Source of the DNA: Owenia fusiformis
Taxonomy: Eukaryota > Annelida > Polychaeta > Sabellida > Oweniidae
Direction: 5' to 3'
Assembly (NCBI GenBank): GCA_903813345.2
Contig: CAIIXF020000007.1
Coordinates: 16,350,714 to 16,414,713, forward strand
DNA: 64,000 bases
Shown here: positions 12,165 to 23,244 of the stretch, in pieces
How positions within the stretch are numbered: the first letter of the stretch is position 1
Layout of the letters: every line of letters starts with the position of its first letter
The notes under the pieces: generated by a model
Told to the model about the DNA's origin: nothing
Seen by the model: the letters and a program-made list of their open reading frames with translations, nothing else
The model's database searches: none
Program-made: the position numbers and the translations under genes

Positions 12165-12173
12165 TGATTAACA
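12165..12173 (+). repeat. Left target-site duplication of the 11-kb transposon
   Basis: TGATTAACA here is repeated exactly at 23236-23244. Each copy lies 10 bp outside the near-perfect core of the terminal repeats. The symmetry makes chance unlikely and supports a 9-bp (or 8-bp plus one matching base) target duplication. Confidence 0.65.
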
Positions 12174-12183
12174 AGGTGGGCAT

Positions 12184-12251
12184 AGGTAACGCGGCGCAGT
12201 CAAGCATATCTGTTCAAAACGAGGCTGCAACGCGGTAAAGACACAAAATGG
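12184..12251 (+). repeat. Left 68-bp terminal inverted repeat
   Basis: Starts AGGTAACGCGGCGCAGTCAA and ends AAAATGG. It matches the reverse complement of 23158-23225 at 67 of 68 positions; the only difference is T here against C in the right copy, in the second ACGCGG motif. The final ATGG includes the start codon of the plus-strand gene, so the repeat probably also serves as its promoter and leader. Confidence 0.92.
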
Positions 12252-15200
12252 AGGCAACTCCAATTATCGGAGGCACTTCGTCCTCTGTTTCCTCGAAACA
12301 TAGGTAAGTTTTTGAAAACTCATGCTTCACACTCGGTGATCAACCCCTTAAGGTATGTAAAGCTACAAGAATTTCTGTTCAGGCATTGACCAGAGTAAAG
12401 AAAAAGTCAACGCAGATATGATTTCCTGATCCTATTTCTCTTGACCTATCTTCTTATTCCAATTAAGGAGGTATTTCGCCACTCATGAGCAAATTTAACA
12501 TTGACATTCAATAGCCTGATACTTATAGAATGTACAATACAAATTAAGATTGAAACTTTTGTTTATTTTCATCGCAATCTGGTTCCAAAATTGAACTAGC
12601 CGGAAACGCGGCGCAGTCATTTTCAGCAATTATGGCAACGCGTCGACAGCATAGATTAAATTGTATGGCAACGCGGTGCAGGCATCAACTTTGTATTGTA
12701 AAGTACAAAGAAGTTTTGCATTATGCTTTTCTGTCGAGGATTTTGATTTAATAAGGCATGTGATTTTTTTCAGAAAAAGATCAAGCAATACCAATCTATC
12801 CCTATACAGAACGAAGAGACGAAGAATAGGGAGCAATTCTACAATAAACATAAATGTCGAGGGGAACAAACGGAAATTCATATCACCAGATAGGGGGAGG
12901 AGGCCAACAACCCCATTTCCCGAGGTCCGCTGGACACCAAAAAAAGCGCATCGACGTCCCGTCAGACATTTTAAAAGAAAATTATTTAAAGAAACAACAA
13001 ATGAGATTGATAAACTGACTTTACTGGAAGGGTTACTACCCAATGTATTAATGTATGCGGAAAAACACAACATTTCTGCTGAACTTACAATGGCATTTAA
13101 AGCAATGGCAAATGAACAATTGCCAGGTGACAATATTGCAATGCATTTATTCTTCGACGTTGTGCGCTGGTTTTCATTGGATAACGCTCACAAAATGTCA
13201 TACAGTCCATTGTCACTGACCTTCTGGAAAGTTGGGTCGCGACTCTTTCATGGAAAGTTCATGAGGTTTATGCGAGGACAAAAACTTGGAGGGACACTTC
13301 TGTCTGGAAACTCTGAAAAGGGGAAACTCGATCCACAAACTTCTCAAATAAATTTTGCCGTACCTAATGATTCCACACTATCTTCCTTTACTGGGTTCGA
13401 CTCAAACATTCCAAAGTTTCTCAAACCAGGTGTGTAAATGTTTATAAAAGTTATGGGATCGGATGTTTACTGAAAATCCATCCTTCAGTATTGGTGTTAC
13501 ACAAGACCACATATAGTGCCAAGTGTCTTTTGGACAGTTATATCGTTGCCCAGAGTATTTCGTACCCATAATAAAATCTGCACTAGACGAAAATAAAACT
13601 AGTAACAATGATAAGTGTTCATGTTAACTTATGGGTTTATGATATATTTATTGATTAAAAATGCAAATTGATCGTAAAGAATGTCTAGCAATGATATAAT
13701 AAAACAAATATTTCATTCTATGGAAGGCAATACCTGTTCATCTTTCAATGATTTTTGCAGTATGTATTGCCCGCAGCCCGTATATTCACCAGTCACGACT
13801 TAGTCCAATGTAATTTCAATTTAATTTTACATCAATTGTTTGATATTCCATTAACAATAAAACAAATGTTTAATTTTGTTTTCAGTGGATACATATGAAA
13901 AAACATGAATTCATTCCGGAATTTTCAAGTTATTGTTTTGTAGATTTTTCGAATTCGTAGATGACCATCGATATTTTTATAGCTCGAGGCGCAACTGTTT
14001 TCATGAATTGAAAAACACGAATCCAAACGTTGTACATTGCAATTGACTTTTGCTATTCACGTTATGGATATTATTTATGCCTTATATGGTCATTTTGCAG
14101 GCATCATCAACGAAGCCATACCTATGGCCAAACCCGATAAAACTTATGTTCTAAGTGTGGATGGTAAAAAGCTTGCATCTGGATTGACAGAATCTCATGG
14201 CGATATTGATTTGTTCGGTCACGAGGATGGAAAATCTCTTGAGGAACTTCAAAGTAGAATAAAATCCGAGATAAATCGTGCAATAGATGTATCTAATCAA
14301 ATCAAGAACAGGGAAAATCAAGATGCTGACGGCCTCAAAGAATTTATAAAGATAGTATCCACCCGAATCAGAGAGCTTAGAGAACTTAGCTTGAAACAGT
14401 CATTTGCATTAAAGAAGTTCAAGGACAAGGGTGGAGAAGATTGGAAAAAGGGGCCATTGGTATTTGTAATTAGCAGCATTACAGCTCATTTACACGAGGT
14501 CAAAAATGCAGTAAAAGAATTGCTTGAATTAAATGATGGATTGTTGAAAGAGCTTGAAATGGCGGGCAACTTGCAAAGAAATACACTCATTAAACTTGGA
14601 GAACTGCAAGAGAACAAACAGCAAAATTGGGTCCACTTGAAAGAACCTGTTGATCTCACTTCAAGTGAAAATAAACCTGAACATATAAAGCAACGAACGC
14701 CAGAGTGGTTTGATTTACGGCAGCGCTATAGACTAACTGGTAAGAATTGTAAAGTGTGAATAATAAAAGCGGGTTGTTTTCAGTAAAACCTGTATTCCTT
14801 AAAGGCCCTTTGCAAATTATGTTGTTAAATCATTCAAAATTATTGTCATGACTTCAAAAATGTTGGATACATTTTTCGAAAAAGCTTACTTTGTAAGATA
14901 AAATAGTTCGTCTTTATATTTGATTTTCTAAATTATACCTCTACCCCAATGTGCTCAATAAGGGATCAGACATGAAACCAAATTGTTAGTTACGTTAAGC
15001 GGAACGTACCATTTTATAAAGTTTTCAATCCAATAAAACTTTGTGGAAAATATCAGTTACAGAATAAAAGTCCAACTAACTATAATCATTTGTGATAAAA
15101 TTAGAGGTAATATCCTTCAGATTCAGAGGTCTCTTCTCATCAGTTCCAAATTAGGGGTAGGGGTAACATACATACAATAAACTTGAAATTGTAAGATAAT

Positions 15201-18200
15201 TATAACTCTTAGTCTTTCTCAATGACCCTTGAATATGTTATACATCCTATACTTAGCTTATGCATACCAAACTATATGTCAGATATAATATATAAATGTG
15301 TTAATTGAGCAAAATGGTTACATTCTATCCCTACTTTCACTGCTATTTAAGGACGAAAAATCATGTTTTAGATTTTCCAGAATATTAACGATAAATGCCG
15401 ATATAATGATATATGAGTTTAATTATACAAAATTTTGAAAATGTAATGACTGATAAAGGACCATGCACCTTTTTTCTTTACAGAGGGTACGCATTTTGAT
15501 TTTTCAATTCTGTTCCAGGGAGCACGTTGTACAATGCCCTTGGTTTACGTACATTAAAAGCTCAGCAAGAACATTTTGACAGTGTCGTCAAAGGGAAGAA
15601 GAAACCAGATTTTACAGATGAAACCAAGTCGTATCTGGAATATGGCACGGCCAATGAACCTAATCTGGTAGCAACATTGACTGGGAAAATATTACCGGCA
15701 TTTTATCCAAATTATGTGTTCGTTGAAGAAGGTGCTCGTGAAATAAAGCGGAAAGATAAATCGACGATGTTGATATCTGGCGATGGAGCATTGGTAAATA
15801 AAAATGAATTTGACTCTGCAATGGAAAGCAGTCGGGCTCCAAAAATGGAAATTGCTATCGAAGGAAAATGCCGATTCCCAAAGGATTATAAACTCCCTGT
15901 CCACTATGGTTTAGAACTAGGCCACGTCCCCCAGGTACTGTCAGAAATGGTTGCATTAGATGTACGGAAATTGCTGTATTTGTCCTACAGTCATCAAAGC
16001 ACAACGTGTTTTATAGTTACCTATGATGATGATCTCTGGGAAATGCTGTCACGAGAGGCTTCATTGATCTACGGTTCGGATAATCCACAGCGTCCCACAC
16101 GCTTGACAGCAAGTTCTAAGTTACTCAAAGAAGCATTAAAGATGTTCGTTTCTACAAATGTCGAATTTGTTTGTGAAGTCGCATCCAACTCTATTCTACG
16201 AGGTAGTGATTCCCTCAAAAGTCTGTGTTCACCATTCAAAGGCTGCCCATTTTTGGTAACGAAACGAGACAATGCCGACCACGTTCTTGCAATCCCACTG
16301 GAAAATGATGTAATTGAACGAGCAAGTAAAATCCTCCAGGAAGCCTATGAACTTCTTAGAAAGAAGGCTACCGAAGTTTTAGTGTGGCTTATCAGTACGA
16401 CGGATAGAGAATGGTCTCCTGAATGTCCACACGCAATTCCAATCGCCTGGGCTCTCAAAGGATACAGTCTTTCAAACGATGTGATGAGAAAGATGACAGA
16501 CACAATTCTCAACAAGCTAGAAAGATCTGAGATAAAAATTTCGTGTACGGTATTTGATGGACAGTGGGCGAAATATGCAAGTCGCAGCAAAGAAGCAGAG
16601 CCATTGAACATATTGCAATTACAAAAGGACGTCTGGACAGAAGTTAGGGGAATGAAAAAAGAGCTACTGATGGAGAAATTTGGTACATTAAAGATAACAG
16701 ATTGCAATGTTCTTCGTTCTGATACCGGATTCGACGTAACATCGAAGTCATATGCAAAACTGCGTACTCAACTGTACCATACGTTTATTGCAAGTCAAGA
16801 CGAAACGAGTGCCGACGATGATAAAACTGCCGAATCGAATGACACTGTAAATACAACCATTGACGCAAACGTTGTCTCTTCTTTGCCTGATGGTGCCTTG
16901 GACGTTCTGCTAACTGAAACGAATTCTCCCGAATTCCTGGACGGATTAGGTACTATTTTTAGTTTACGGTTATTAATGATACAATAACGTGTCTCCCTTC
17001 AACAGATCGTGTATTATGATTCGTATACCTTTATTTTGTCGTTATATTGTTGTTATATCGTGCAAAGGGCAATACTTGGAAGAGAAACATTATTAAACCT
17101 AACTTACCAATTTCCTTGCCGATCTCACCCCCTTAATACTTATCTTTTAATAGATGAAATAGCAGTTGGTGAAGAGAAAGAGATTGACGGAGAAACTGAG
17201 GTTGATGGCGCCACTGTCTTTGGAGACGTGCAATTGATATCACAGGAAATCACTCTGATTGGTTGTCTTGAAGCACTTCAGGTACTTCATTGCTTTGAAC
17301 ATGCTTGACAAATATATTATCGTGAAAGAAGCTCAAATGTACATAGGCTTGCATGTTCCGAATTTTTTTTACTTATTACAATGTATTCTGGGAGAGGAAT
17401 TCTTAAATGATGTCTATGGTCACTGGGTATATCGGAAATACGTATATGAAACAATAGAGAGTTTTCGCAACTCCCGTATAGCACTCCCTTATGACGTATA
17501 ACTTATAATCGTGTGTATTAAAGAATAGGACAGTATCTATATGCATAAACATAAGTTATGCTATAAGTAAGTTGCGAAAACTCTTTTATATCGAGAAAAA
17601 CACGTTTCTTTCCAAGTATGATTGTTGTGGTAGCCTTCCTAAACGTTGCACACTGGTCTTTTGATTTTTGTTTGTTCAAAAAATCATGCAACTTACAAAA
17701 TTATGAACCTATTTTGTAGAGTGATTTAGTTTAACCTCAGACTCAAACCAAATGTCGATGTATACCTGCATAATAGCCATTTTGATTTACTATAGCAAGA
17801 AATTTTGATGAGTAGACAGACACAAAATGTATATGGGTTTGTCATTGTGACTTGTGGGATAAAGTAGGCCTATAAATTTGACAAAACATTTATTTTTCTA
17901 TTTTTCTATTTTATAGGCTGATAAAAAGGAGAGTGTATCAATCAAGTGGAAGAATAGAAAGTATGAAGATATTAAAACTAAGCTGAGCAATGCTCGTGAA
18001 ATGTCATCACTAACCGTACACGAGATAGATATCGTCATAAATGAGCTCATCATTAAACAGAAGATATCACCTACAAGTATCCGAAAATCCTGGCCAAAAC
18101 ATGACAAAGTAAACCGTCTCTCTTCGTTAATTGGAGATGGTTCTGAAATCAATCCACCTGAACGGAGAGTGAAAACTATGAAATCTCTTCGTGAATTCTC

Positions 18201-20060
18201 AATCCAAGCAATAATCAAACCTAGATCAAACATAAAACAGTTTAAGTTGCCCACTAGAACCCATTTAAATGTTGCTTATGCAACATTATCCTATCCTTAC
18301 CGGTACAAATGCTGGAAAGAAACAATGAAAACAGTGGATGTCAATAAAATCTATGGGTTAGATTCTTCGTCACCGTATGAATGGTTCTATTTTCCCGAAT
18401 ACTCCAAAGAACGAAATCGTATCGAACCAAGGTGTCTTGATGGAGACCACATTTTTGTGAACACCAGAGTGAAGGTATGCAAGGACGGGCTAGAAGGTGT
18501 ATCGAAAGCTGCATGGCATGCTGTTTCTTCGGCTAGGCCTGATTTACTAAGTAAGAGTCTGGTTGAAGACCTCATTGACAAACAAAATAACAGGTTTGCA
18601 AAGACCACGTTTTCAGAAGCCGTTGAGAGATGTATGATTGATCTACAGTACAAAGAGGAAGCGCAATTTACACGACTAATTAGACGCTGGTATGAAGCTG
18701 AGGACGATCCTGGCATACCTGCAGTCGAACGAGCTAAAAGGCGGTATGAGTTTAGAGAATACCTCATGGATGGAGTGGACTTTGGGAGTTTCCCACCACC
18801 AGGGCAATACATTAAAGGTATGCCGATAATCACATATGAAGGCATTCTCCAAAGCATCGATTGTCATATGCTACTCTACTCACTTTGCCGAAATGGAACC
18901 TACAATCAACGGGCTATAAGTTCCTTGGTTAACGAGAACTTCTTTGGCGAACTGTCTGAGATCGAACCTACAAAGCTTGGATGCCCGAAGGCGACAACAG
19001 TGGGGCGACTAATGGCTACAGTTACTGAACTGCTGCATTATCGCCATAATCCCTTGTGCAGGTATGACAATTCACGATGACTGAATATTTAGTCACGTTC
19101 ACATTCCTTCTTAAACTTTCCTGCTCTTGCCTGTATTACCTGTCGTTATTTTAGAAACATGTACATATTTGGAAACCAGAACTCATCCTTTAATAACGTT
19201 CATGAAGGGATTTGAAATCCAGTACGAATTCAGTACGTACAGGAAAATTGTTTTATGATTTATGATTTTGGTTTTAGGTTATTGTAAATTAAGAAATGTC
19301 AAATCATCTAATAGTGCTCAAAATACTACCATGACCCTTTAAACATGTTAAGGAAGTAAATATGTATGAAGTGCATTGATATATTATAAATATTTCTTTT
19401 GTAGAACCTTTCAAATGTCAACTGCCAAACGACCTGTGTATCCGCAACACAAGCTAGATGAACAGGCTCCTTCAAATCCGGAAGAAAACTTTGTACCTGA
19501 TGAGATTAAGTTCAATGCATCTACAAATAAAATGGAAATCTCAGCCATACACTTAAGGTAATTGTGAAGTTCGGAATTCAATATAGACAACCTTTTCAAT
19601 TGAATTTGATTAATAAATATGATTAAAATGAACAACATATTTTGGGATGGAGGAAAAAATAAAAAAACTGAAAAATAAATAATATTCAAAATGAGTTGGA
19701 GCGATCTCTATTAGAATAACATTCACTGCATATTTGTCTCAGATAATTCAAATATAAAATCACGAAGTCAACCTAGGATATCAATTTAAAATGCAGTATA
19801 AATTGTACGTTCTCAAAATCCAACAGACTGGCGTTCCAAAAAATCCAGGGCAGCTTAGATGTATTAATCTCCACCTTTATTATAGGGACCATTATTTCGA
19901 CTCAGTTAAGAGGGCAGCGCGAAAGCAAAGGAAGGGAAAAGCAGGGGATGTGTCCAATCCGAGAGCTCCGTCTCGGGGGGCCTTGCCGGTTCGACAATAT
20001 CATCGAGTAGACGAATCAAAGATTTTGCCAACTCAAAGACTTGGAATCCAATTAGAATGA
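12248..20060 (+). CDS. Transposon protein: YqaJ nuclease within a putative DDE transposase
   Basis: Eight exons can be read: 12248-12303, 12774-13429, 14101-14739, 15519-16949, 17154-17281, 17917-19061, 19405-19557 and 19886-20060. All introns are GT-AG and phases agree throughout, giving 1460 residues. Residues 285-430 are rich in charged heptads (likely coiled coil). Residues 433-640 resemble the YqaJ/lambda-exonuclease fold: RLTGS at 448-452, E497 in YGTANE, D538 in SGDG, E564-x-K566, and Q588. Outside it, D258 (SVDGKK), D797 (VFDGQW) and E1310 (VNENFFGEL) sit in contexts like the catalytic acids of P/hAT-type RNase H transposases, with a DxxHxxxNxR-like helix at 1145-1154. The role would be cutting, joining and possibly end resection of the element's DNA in the nucleus. 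The nuclease assignment is fairly sure; the DDE reading is inference. The start codon lies in the terminal repeat. Confidence 0.8.
12602..12685 (+). repeat. Left subterminal repeat array, three 19-bp units
   Basis: Units at 12602-12620, 12634-12652 and 12667-12685 follow the pattern GGMAACGCGKYGHMRKCAT. They share the GGTAACGCGGCGCAGTCA motif of the terminal repeat and are spaced 32-33 bp, about three helical turns. They lie 428-511 bp from the left end, in intron 1 of the large gene. Likely transposase or zinc-finger binding sites. Confidence 0.75.
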
Positions 20061-21534
20061 TAAAAGCAGTATAAAACCAAAGTTAATGAAATAAAGAATT
20101 CGAAATATTTGTTGACCTTCTACTCATTCACTTAATCACAAAACTGCAATTTCATTTACTGCTTTAAGACTGGTCACTCTATTAAACTGAGACAATTAAG
20201 TTATAGATAAGTATAACCTGTTAATTTTTGCCTAGTCTAATTGTTAGTCCTAGAAGCTAGCATTCTGTCCGATAATGCAGTTTTGATTAACAACGTGTGG
20301 TTTTGTTCTATTTGAGTATGTAAATAAAATGGCATAAAGACTTAATAAAATCAGAAGATATACAATCCATGGAAGTAATGAAGAATCATGCAGTTCACTG
20401 GAACAAATAGTTATATGAGACATATCTACGACAAGAATGCATAAAATTGTAAGATTAAGCTTTCAAATTTACTATATGTATTCTATTGTATTTTTCAATA
20501 TTCATAAACATTTAGCATGTCACTTTATTACATAGTAATGATCTTTACAATTATCAGGAACAAATGTTCACAACGTCATTTTTCATCATGCTTGTGCGGA
20601 CAATCCGTAACGTAGGGTACATGCATAATTTGTATGGTACAGTATTTATAAACTCGATATAAACTATATATATATCGTACACTTGTATGCTTTTAAAGAT
20701 GTAATGAGTTTTCTCATTTGATGAGGAAATGCTCGAAAATACAAATATAAAACTACATCAAACAGAAACAATCAGATCTTAACTATTTAATACAAACACC
20801 ATACTGTACTATGTTAAACAAAACCTTTGGTGAATTGTTGGTCAATAAGCTCTGTCACCCTTTTAATGCCAAAACTCTTTTTAAAATAATTGCTCTTGGT
20901 GAAAAGTACTATGGCAACGCAAATTAAGTCATAGCCTAGTATCACCTAATTTTGAAAGAACAAACCAAAGGGCATGTTGATCCTGATCCTGGCAGGGAGT
21001 AATTGGAAAAGTCTGTTTACAAAAATGAATACGTACAGTACGTATTATGCCAGTGCATAATCATTAAATTACACTAAAGCACAGAGTCCTGTAAATTTTT
21101 AAAGTCATGTAGATTCATTTTATAATCGTATTGCACGACGACAATGTACACTCCCCTTCAAGTTTGGCAACCTTAGCTCCCCATTGGACTACGTGTTAAA
21201 CTGGAGGTATTTGAAATAATATTAATTAAAGTAATCTTAACAGATTATGACAATACGAATTCATACATAAAGAGGCTTTAAAACGTAATCCAAAGGGAGA
21301 GTTATTAAGGTTGTCAAGCCTTCACGAGGATGTGTACTCTACAAACAAAAGAAAATGAATAATATTTTCTTTTTAATTTGAATTACATACTTCTCATTCG
21401 GTTATGATTGAAATAAAATACCTGTTAAAAAATAAAAATACATATATTTTCAACACCATTTAATCTATATCTATCTGATCTCAATCCAAATAAACATACA
21501 GTCCAAAAACATTAATCATACACATGATTCCTTA
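20061..21534. other. Spacer between the two convergent transposon genes
   Basis: About 1.5 kb of AT-rich DNA without open frames of note. AATAAA at 20090-20095, 30 bp after the stop codon, is the likely poly(A) signal of the plus-strand gene. For the minus-strand gene only an ATTAAA variant (reverse complement of 21459-21464) was seen. No further gene or repeat is recognised. Confidence 0.55.
20090..20095 (+). terminator. Poly(A) signal of the transposon's large gene
   Basis: AATAAA 30 bp downstream of the TGA stop at 20058-20060, with no competing gene in between. This is the canonical cleavage and polyadenylation hexamer. Confidence 0.55.
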
Positions 21535-23161
21535 TTAATGCTTTTTAGCCATATGTTTATACAAGGACCCCCTATATGCATAGAAACACCCGCACTGCGA
21601 GCATTGAAAACGGTCTGGATCAATATGCCCTTTGGTGTGTTCTTTCAAATATCGTTTTGCCTTGAAAAACCTTGTGCATGTTTCGCATTTGAAAGGCTTT
21701 GCCCTTGATTTACAAATTAATTTGTGATCAAGAAGGTGAGACTTCCTGGCAAATATTTTGTCACATTTGGGACATGGGAATTCTTTATCATGAGTGTGAC
21801 TATTGACGTGACAATCATAGTGTCCTTTGTGCTGGAATGACTTTCCGCAGTGGGGGCAAATATACTTGGCTGAGGTACCATCATGCGTCTTCATGTGGGC
21901 ACTTAGATTTCTTTTGTATTTATAGCTCCTATTGCATTCTGTATACGTACAACTGTATCTCTCAAGTTCATTTGTTTTGTTGCTGCATGGCTTTTCCTGT
22001 GTGGAATTGCAGGGTGGGAGAATGGGGATTTCTTGATGTCTCTGAAATATCAAAATAAAAATAACAAAGGAAAAGTTAAAGTTTCAGCACTGATCTCAAT
22101 ACTTTGTTCCTATAAAATATATCACAAGTGGTTCGTTATTTCCTTAACCTCAATCAAATTTCAGGAAACAGATATTATTTCACGGTGACTTATATCCAGG
22201 CCCCGTATATCGCGAGCAAGTTCCCGCTGACATCGCGAGCAATGAGCTCATGTTAGAAGCGGGGCTTTGAGAGATATGATAAAAATAGTTATAGTTGAAG
22301 AACGTCTTTGCCCTGCAATTGAAATAGCCATCGAACTACAAAATAAAGTTGTACTGAGTTTTACTTACTAGACTTTCATAGAAAATTTTATATTCCAATT
22401 TTATCATATCTCTCAGGGCCTCGTTCCTACTCTTGAGCTCATTGCTCGCGATGGCAGCGGGGCCTGGATAGACCCCGTGTGTTTGAATCACATTGATTGG
22501 GATTTGATGCATATCAAGCCTTGTGTGTGGATAACTTACGTATTCGTCATGTGTAACTTCTAGAGAATCGTTAGATGATGTATCTGCTGTATCTGATGTA
22601 TCTAACTCATTACATCCCATCTGGTGCATGATTATCTTGGTGATTTTGTCCTGAAAAAAGCAGATAGAGAATGCTTTGATAATGTAATTATCGTACACGA
22701 TAGAACATCAGCTGCATTGCTGTCACTGCGTTTCCAGCTTTGTCAAATATGTATGATGTCTGAACCCGCGTTGCCGAAGTGTCTGAACCGCGTTTCCAAA
22801 ATATACCTGGTTTTCCACCCAGAATCGGTTAACAGAAGGCAAACAGTGATGAAACTTTGAAGAAATAGAGATTACCGTGGTATATACGTGATTAAATAGA
22901 TATGCGTCAAGTGACAAAGTCAAAAACATAGAATTTAAGCTAGAAAAATGCCACAATTGTCAAATTTCAGTAAGTGATTGACTTTGATTGACTTGGAATG
23001 TATTTCCCTGATTGACTAAATTTCAAGAAGCTTCACACAGACATACTCTGTGAAGTTCTCCACCGAATGGTATATGCTATTATAACTGTAGCAGACACAA
23101 ACTAGTGTATGACGCTTATGAATAAACTTACCGCCCTTTCGACCTTCCACTGAGTGGCCAT
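21535..23161 (-). CDS. Transposon-encoded five-finger C2H2 zinc-finger protein
   Basis: Three minus-strand exons can be read: 23161-23132, 22650-22369 and 22041-21535, all GT-AG and all phase 0, giving 272 residues. The first exon encodes MATQWKVERA and its ATGG is the last part of the right terminal repeat. Residues 11-104 are acidic, low in motif content and unrecognised. From about residue 120 to the end there are five C2H2-type fingers in tandem: finger 1 has a four-residue Cys spacing, finger 3 ends in Cys (C2HC), and finger 5 has a longer His spacing. Such a protein would bind DNA in the nucleus, plausibly the terminal or subterminal repeats, as an accessory or regulator of the transposase; that role is inferred from its place in the element. 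A captured host zinc-finger gene is the alternative. The C-terminus ends two residues after the last zinc ligand region. Confidence 0.82.
22193..22284 (-). repeat. Inverted partial copy of the zinc-finger gene's exon 2 inside its intron 2
   Basis: Intron 2 contains, on the opposite strand, a diverged copy of exon 2 sequence (22399-22470). It shares TATCCAGGCCCCG, ATCGCGAGCAATGAGCTCA and GAGAGATATGATAAAA in the same order. The two arms are about 115 bp apart and could pair in the pre-mRNA. The copy is shorter and diverged, so it is older than the insertion. Confidence 0.7.
22717..22797 (-). repeat. Right subterminal repeat array, three units
   Basis: Units at 22717-22735, 22757-22775 and 22779-22797 read on the minus strand as GGMAACGC-starting motifs of the same kind as the left array. 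They lie 438-518 bp from the right end, nearly mirroring the left array (428-511 bp), inside intron 1 of the zinc-finger gene. Confidence 0.7.
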
Positions 23162-23225
23162 TTTGTGTCTTTGCCGCGTTGCAGCCTCGTTTTGAACAGA
23201 TATGCTTGACTGCGCCGCGTTACCT
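23158..23225 (-). repeat. Right 68-bp terminal inverted repeat
   Basis: Inverted copy of 12184-12251 with one mismatch. Read on the minus strand it begins AGGTAACGCGG and ends AAAATGG, supplying the start codon of the zinc-finger gene. Confidence 0.92.
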
Positions 23226-23235
23226 CAGACCACGG

Positions 23236-23244
23236 TGATTAACA
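23236..23244 (+). repeat. Right target-site duplication of the 11-kb transposon
   Basis: TGATTAACA, identical to 12165-12173, placed at the same 10-bp distance from the terminal-repeat core. Confidence 0.65.

Follow-up and report, generated by a model that had tools for sequence, protein, structure and literature searches.

An Owenia fusiformis transposon with a probable P-like transposase, an inserted YqaJ-type nuclease domain and a convergent zinc-finger gene

A transposon with two genes lies in a 64,000-nucleotide stretch of the genome of the annelid Owenia fusiformis (contig CAIIXF020000007.1, positions 16,350,714 to 16,414,713), which is called the window here. The element is bounded by inverted terminal repeats, and its genes converge (Table 1). 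Gene 1 encodes a transposase of 1460 residues, while gene 2, on the opposite strand and in three exons, encodes a C2H2 zinc-finger protein of 272 residues. An initial annotation of the window had proposed both spliced genes, and they are borne out by canonical GT-AG junctions and zero internal stops; the five fingers assigned to the smaller protein are also confirmed. Both start codons fall within ACAAAATGG, where a terminal repeat meets the interior of the element (the left repeat for gene 1, the right one for gene 2), so both genes apparently read inward from the repeats. The genome searched for relatives and further copies comprises 498 Mb in 525 contigs.

Table 1. Features of the transposon, in coordinates of the window
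Feature	Coordinates	Strand	Basis or remarks
Transposon	12172..23237	+	11,066 bp, CA...TG
Target site duplication, left, 5 bp, ATTAA	12167..12171	.	Outer 5 bp match in 17/19 copies; single copy at empty-site paralogues of another insertion
Target site duplication, right, 5 bp, ATTAA	23238..23242	.	Multi-copy comparison
Left terminal inverted repeat, 80 bp	12172..12251	+	74/80 against right repeat; 67/68 over positions 13-80
Right terminal inverted repeat, 80 bp	23158..23237	-	74/80 against left repeat
Left subterminal repeats	12602..12676	+	AACGCGG at 12605 and 12670, near-match at 12634; oriented as the terminal-repeat AACGCGG (12188, 12229)
Right subterminal repeats	22766..22794	-	AACGCGG at 22766 and 22788; orientation opposite to the left ones
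Gene 1, transposase, 1460 aa	12248..20060	+	Open reading frame across 8 exons, canonical splice sites; relatives are long open reading frames or annotated proteins
Gene 1 exons	12248-12303, 12774-13429, 14101-14739, 15519-16949, 17154-17281, 17917-19061, 19405-19557, 19886-20060	+	GT-AG junctions
First catalytic Asp, D258, and next strand (DGKK...GDIDLFGHE), RNase H-like	14160..14225	+	D in 21/21 covering sequences
YqaJ / lambda-exonuclease-like domain, E497, D539, E565-x-K567, Q589	14694..16075 (intron in coding span)	+	PF09588 in relatives; residue conservation
RNase H-like strand and helix to second catalytic Asp, D797 (FDGQW)	16367..16558	+	PF21787 match; D in 25/25
D(2)H motif (D1145, H1148), region aligned with P-type insertion domain, catalytic Glu, E1310 (ENFFGE)	18439..18936	+	D, H and E each in 20/20 covering sequences; aligns with P-like proteins
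Gene 2, C2H2 zinc-finger protein, 272 aa	21535..23161	-	Exons 23161-23132, 22650-22369, 22041-21535; start codon at inner edge of right repeat

The gene 1 protein carries a YqaJ/lambda-exonuclease-like domain between D258 and D797, the first two catalytic residues of an RNase H-like core. When 27 aligned sequences of the family, a set that includes separate exon pieces of the window protein and of some relatives, were scanned against Pfam at E 0.1, 19 of them matched PF09588, the best at 9e-10. One of these relatives, P0001, is 41% identical over 77% of exon 3 and matches PF09588 at 1.7e-6. P0003, P0004 and P0006 also match TIGR03033, under its cut-off (best 2e-8). An alignment of 25 sequences was used for single residues; it includes the window and leaves out P0002, P0023 and P0024 as well as L038, L040 and L041, loci that are broken or incomplete. 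Residues W440, R444, E497, D539, E565, K567 and Q589 are present in all 25, and R436 in 21/25. The signature of YqaJ and lambda exonuclease (PD-(D/E)XK), namely E, D, ExK and Q, is found in 25/25.

The remainder of the core resembles P transposase. PF21787 (TNP-like RNase H, N-terminal) is the sole transposase family in Pfam that the 27 sequences match at E 0.1; nine match it unexcised, the best at 7e-4. The profile was also applied to cores from which the residues between GDIDLFGHE and KKATEV had been removed in silico (cut-off 24.6 bits; six of eight excised cores were in the scan set, P0011 and P0018 being excluded). In P0001 excision raises the score from 20.3 to 29.3 bits, compared with 24.5 when the segment of the first Asp (Asp 1) is scrambled and 24.7 when that segment is left out. 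The short excised core of the window protein scores 24.4, and its part without Asp 1 scores 21.3.

Profile-profile alignment was done with P-like proteins of the same genome, where 13 loci match PF21787, 10 were read and 7 aligned; one such protein aligns with the solved P transposase 6p5a. With both inserts taken out, hhalign gives a local score of 45.3 (P=1.1e-4), the best of 60 column-shuffled decoys, which were run in local mode only, reaching 19.1. In global mode P is 5.8e-7 and the reported probability 86%. The local score is 32.5 when the YqaJ insert is kept (best decoy 29.5), 26.7 when the linker is kept (best decoy 22.9) and again 26.7 when both are kept (best decoy 30.0), all near the decoy level. 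A narrower query scores 33.2, where the best of its 200 decoys reaches 26.1. The global alignment shows the features in the order of the P-like set: D..K of Asp 1, FDG with the second Asp (Asp 2), DxxH, EG, and E..F. A further region appears to align at the site of the GTP-binding insertion domain of P (strand 5 / helix 4). The protein had been described as matching no superfamily that could be named; the PF21787 match, the collinear D/D/DxxH/E motifs and the profile-profile alignment make its core P-element-like instead. These statistics are moderate and the single-sequence tests weak; they suggest a DDE (Asp-Asp-Glu) RNase H-like core, with a D(2)H motif, that is homologous to P transposase. 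The YqaJ nuclease and a further stretch seem to be inserted in the RNase H-like fold, between the first strands and the strand leading to Asp 2.

The limits of the element were set by comparing copies. When the left 81 bases were searched against the genome, at least 40 scored end matches emerged from 96 candidates, the window's own left end being one of the matches, so the other copies expected from the initial annotation do exist. Twenty matched places were fetched; 18 of them and the window make 19 copies with both ends, no right end having been detected in the other two, L055 and L058. A perfect 5-bp duplication stands directly outside CA...TG in 17 of the 19; the exceptions are L043, where one base is mismatched, and L044, which lacks a duplication. 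(A single insertion, copied together with its flanks, accounts for both L049 and L050.) The left terminus is CA in 18/19 copies (TA in L044) and the right terminus TG in 19/19. At the L059 insertion, three paralogous repeats in L058 and L061, 89-96% identical, cross the insertion point uninterrupted with one TTGTA. Because of the flank identity in 17/19 copies and these empty-site paralogues, we take the duplication to be 5 bp, that of the window to be ATTAA, and the element to span 12172-23237. Limits of 12174-23235 and a 9-bp direct repeat, TGATTAACA, had been claimed earlier. The comparison of many copies excludes a 9-bp duplication and corrects both claims: TGATTAACA consists of the 5-bp duplication plus two further bases per side, the CA and TG on the inner sides belonging to the element and the same bases on the outer sides being there by coincidence. 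The search for empty sites thus succeeded for another copy; for the window insertion it returned the occupied site alone. The 67/68 identity noted for the terminal repeats holds over element positions 13-80. In the outer 12 bp the left end is unlike the right end, and nearly the same difference recurs in other copies with small variation only.

Only one copy with the coding exons of the element was found, the window copy itself. All 20 other fetched copies match the element ends only, at 94.5-99% identity. In the 18 with two ends the retained left part measures about 504-797 bp and the right part 455-642 bp; L055 retains only 256 bp on the left. Several distinct internal breakpoints are seen (514/10523, 619/10491, 766/10503, 774/10499, 736/10454, 554/10425 and 797/10612, in element coordinates), with 1-3 shared bases at several of the junctions. 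The limits, the duplications, the empty sites of another copy and the deleted copies together support the earlier view of a complete, recently mobile DNA transposon.

Some copies are altered further. Foreign inserts are present in L042, L043 and L044 as well, and L061 lacks 58 bp near the right end. Foreign DNA interrupts L042, L043 and L058, and 5-7 bases of the element stand twice where it breaks in, as if other mobile elements had inserted there. In L042 (C347, 970-2200) the left end and flank of one copy occur twice, 627 bp apart, which may reflect either a tandem duplication in place or an error of the assembly. L044 (C10:8455900-8459700), which measures 3.3 kb and has no matching duplications at its flanks, contains a zinc-finger fragment (C10:8457196-8457354) that is 91% identical to that of the C6 family.

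The ends share a short repeat, AACGCGG. All eight of its occurrences in the window are in the element ends, four per end and in mirror image, where 0.41 would be expected; chance is ruled out, 0/100 shuffles reaching eight. Counted from the left end, the repeats stand at 17, 58, 434 and 499 bp; counted from the right end, they stand at 17, 58, 444 and 466 bp. Among the 18 other two-ended copies an exact inner AACGCGG is kept on the left in all and on the right in 16 (not in L045 and L056); the window's 444 site has an exact match near that position in L046 only. The inner sites may be needed in cis, which is a suggestion only because shared descent alone could explain their retention.

The genome holds eight transposase loci of the family, the window included; a 46-residue match at C5:5273583 (E 9.5e-4) was left out of this count. 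None is a close second copy of gene 1: for exon 3 the best long match elsewhere shows 44% identity, and for exon 5 identity reaches up to 69% over 131 residues, at the same C3 locus. A relative on C11 encodes a protein that shares 99% identity with P0003, an Owenia fusiformis protein at NCBI, and the hosts named among the protein matches are Owenia fusiformis, Mercenaria mercenaria, Solemya velum and Mytilus edulis. No terminal repeats were found for the relatives L035-L041 in 10 kb examined per relative, and the 5-bp duplication is therefore established for the window family only. A C2H2-like pattern is seen near the N terminus of L035, L037 and L040. In P0003, P0004, P0006 and others a DLDPxGxGVLxPDDIP-like motif, resembling an EF-hand loop, comes right after the catalytic Glu; it is not in the window protein or L039. 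Upstream of the C3 copy, L039 has tyrosine-recombinase-like and RNase H-like frames (677-2692), possibly of what we presume to be a DIRS-type retroelement in or beside that copy.

Gene 2 had been called a dedicated partner of the transposase, and the other loci support this. A convergent C2H2 gene was detected at six of the eight transposase loci: the window, C5:4.84M, C6:5.37M, C1:5.49M, C3:22.04M and C5:40.99M, the last with a single stop interrupting the matched frame. At C11:19.85M, with 3.9 kb read downstream, and at C11:10.10M, with 1.8 kb, no such gene was seen. Close relatives of gene 2 also occur without a detected transposase of the family (C2:1319520, C6:8850817, C6:25754160, C10:33344644, C2:712112 and C10:30841563), which weakens a strict pairing of the two genes. 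The gene 2 protein is most likely a DNA-binding partner, or a regulator, that would read the terminal and subterminal AACGCGG. A part of gene 2 exon 2 (22399-22461) has an inverted copy in the following intron (22223-22284), so that a hairpin of about 60 bp could arise in the pre-mRNA; another inverted piece, at 20951-20986, past the stop codon, corresponds to the finger region at 21614-21649. These inverted copies are a possible source of self-silencing.

We think it probable that the window contains an autonomous, recently active cut-and-paste transposon that encodes a P-like DDE transposase with an inserted YqaJ-type nuclease, together with a five-finger C2H2 gene. A number of results weigh against this. 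The spliced YqaJ segment of the window, scanned alone, has zero Pfam matches at E 1, and the assignment rests on alignment with relatives such as P0001. The YqaJ nuclease and the transposase proposed for the window are two domains of one protein with the catalytic residues of its relatives, while the nuclease profile is matched in those relatives and not in the window segment itself. Excision does not improve the PF21787 score throughout. The longer excised core of the window gives 20.8 bits, below the 21.3 of the part without Asp 1, that of P0004 gives 20.4 and that of L039 only 14.6, and excised L035/P0003, L036, P0006, P0008 and L037 have no match. Alignment of A3 with one P-like protein by hhalign is not significant (P=0.3). 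Searches of the PDB with the profile of the whole family and with that of the excised core returned no P transposase. The former found myosin light chains at E 0.45, by the EF-hand-like motif, and lambda exonuclease at E 0.75, in the right region; the best match of the latter was BRE1 ligase at E 0.011, with no transposase of any kind. The Pfam scans of the window and the aligned sequences gave no THAP domain, which is N-terminal in Drosophila and vertebrate members of the P superfamily. Finally, P elements and Pdre2 make 8-bp duplications, according to the available parts of two accounts (PMC7776569, PMC10983969), and the duplication here is 5 bp.

A working scheme for such an element can be proposed. 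The transposase and the zinc-finger protein would assemble on the paired ends, which the zinc fingers may recognize. The DDE site would cut the 3' strands and join them at a 5-bp stagger. That stagger is evident from the duplications, and the rest is what the superfamily would lead one to expect. The YqaJ site would work on the opposite strand or on ends already freed, cleaving the 5' strands or else resecting donor ends for gap repair, and the data favour neither. The internally deleted copies could be products of interrupted gap repair that are mobilised in trans. The internal deletions of P elements are ascribed to interrupted gap repair, and a built-in 5'-to-3' nuclease would favour repair of the kind that leaves them.

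Other assignments of the transposase have to be considered. The likeness to P could be generic, and the family could stand in the D(2)H group as a superfamily of its own, with P, hAT, Kolobok and Dada as its sisters. The 5-bp duplications, the THAP domain that was not found, the long linker and the weak single-sequence scores would all suit this, but the whole core aligns collinearly with P-like proteins, local decoys score far below, and P is the one transposase family matched in Pfam; we regard a separate superfamily as rather unlikely. Membership of Kolobok, as a relative of KolobokE, was considered too and is decidedly improbable, less likely than P. PF20700, which we take to be the profile covering Kolobok, is matched by 0/27 aligned sequences at E 0.1, and none of its 115 genome matches falls at the eight loci of the family, in a comparison made at the level of the profile. 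KolobokE has TTAA as its target site duplication and a nuclease downstream of the DDE domain, whereas the window family has varied 5-mers and a nuclease between Asp 1 and Asp 2. What speaks for a Kolobok origin comes from the available parts of one source, where P, hAT, MuDR and Dada have the C/DxxH motif in common with Kolobok, KolobokE joins a DDE transposase of this group to a PD-(D/E)XK lambda-exonuclease-like nuclease, and Owenia is listed as a host of KolobokP (PMC9587614). Head-to-tail arrays with steps of about 3.35 and 3.82 kb and intact 711-residue PF20700 frames are present in C313, C513, C418 and C443; they recall the KolobokP multimers described in that same text (PMC9587614).

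Either of the two added parts might also be foreign to the P-like transposon. In mollusc genome papers, as far as their available text goes, YqaJ domains are counted as endogenous viral elements or recombinases (PMC7826175, PMC10225492), and the domain could be a passenger with no role in transposition, for example one derived from a virus and kept by chance. This is very unlikely, E497, D539, E565, K567 and Q589 being kept in 25/25 sequences, as strictly as the DDE residues, in spite of an identity of 24-39% between family members and P0018. Gene 2 could likewise be a host gene with no tie to the transposon, picked up by chance. The genome is rich in C2H2 genes, with at least 253 matches, and several of the best relatives of gene 2 were seen away from any transposase of the family. 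Such a capture is hardly credible, nevertheless, for a gene that starts inside the right terminal repeat and has a convergent zinc-finger counterpart within about 5 kb of the transposase at 5/7 other loci.

A P-like transposase with an inserted YqaJ nuclease would be of interest for several reasons. In the available text of a review of P elements, insertion domains of DDE transposases, that of P transposase included, lie between strand 5 and helix 4 (PMC7776569); the second nuclease here seems to sit earlier. With this earlier site, both catalytic sets kept and a range from an annelid to bivalves, the family offers a natural test case for the rewiring of second-strand cleavage, stagger length and donor-site repair. 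The window also provides a defined two-protein system, in which an intact source copy is accompanied by non-autonomous derivatives that outline the end sequences that may be needed. Some of the 'YqaJ viral recombinase' annotations in marine invertebrates may be such transposases. No P-type transposase with a YqaJ domain appeared in titles or abstracts among the matches listed, Repbase Reports and most subscription papers being outside the coverage, and no literature pairing 'P element' with 'YqaJ' was found.

To judge from the available parts of their descriptions, none of P elements, Pdre2, KolobokE and ISL2EU combines the features of the window element. The element shares with the P superfamily the PF21787 match and a DDE core with D(2)H motif, and a region aligned with the insertion domain comes in like order. 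Unlike that superfamily, it places a YqaJ nuclease between its first two catalytic Asp, spaces Asp 2 some 350 residues from the D(2)H motif, has a second gene for a zinc-finger protein and bears 80-bp terminal repeats. The CA...TG ends, the subterminal inverted repeats far inside and the internally deleted copies have their like in zebrafish Pdre2, as portrayed in partial texts (PMC10983969, PMC7776569). ISL2EU, of the PHIS superfamily, is also a two-gene transposon with a YqaJ nuclease; in the text available, its YqaJ frame is separate, and its transposase, with DDE, helix-turn-helix and THAP parts, belongs with PIF/Harbinger (PMC4482050). Here the nuclease and the transposase are one fused protein, and no Harbinger-type DDE domain was matched in Pfam by the window or the aligned sequences. 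A parallel in working is offered by the bacterial Tn7, whose PD-(D/E)XK nuclease (TnsA) and DDE transposase (TnsB) act on the same ends and produce a 5-bp duplication. To our knowledge TnsA is not a YqaJ protein, and the likeness, in the division of labour between nuclease and DDE transposase and in the length of the duplication, is one of function. By this analogy it is possible, if doubtful, that the element is an independently evolved eukaryotic Tn7-like solution, in which an inserted nuclease took over second-strand cleavage or end processing, the stagger went from 8 to 5 bp, and recognition moved to a zinc-finger subunit.

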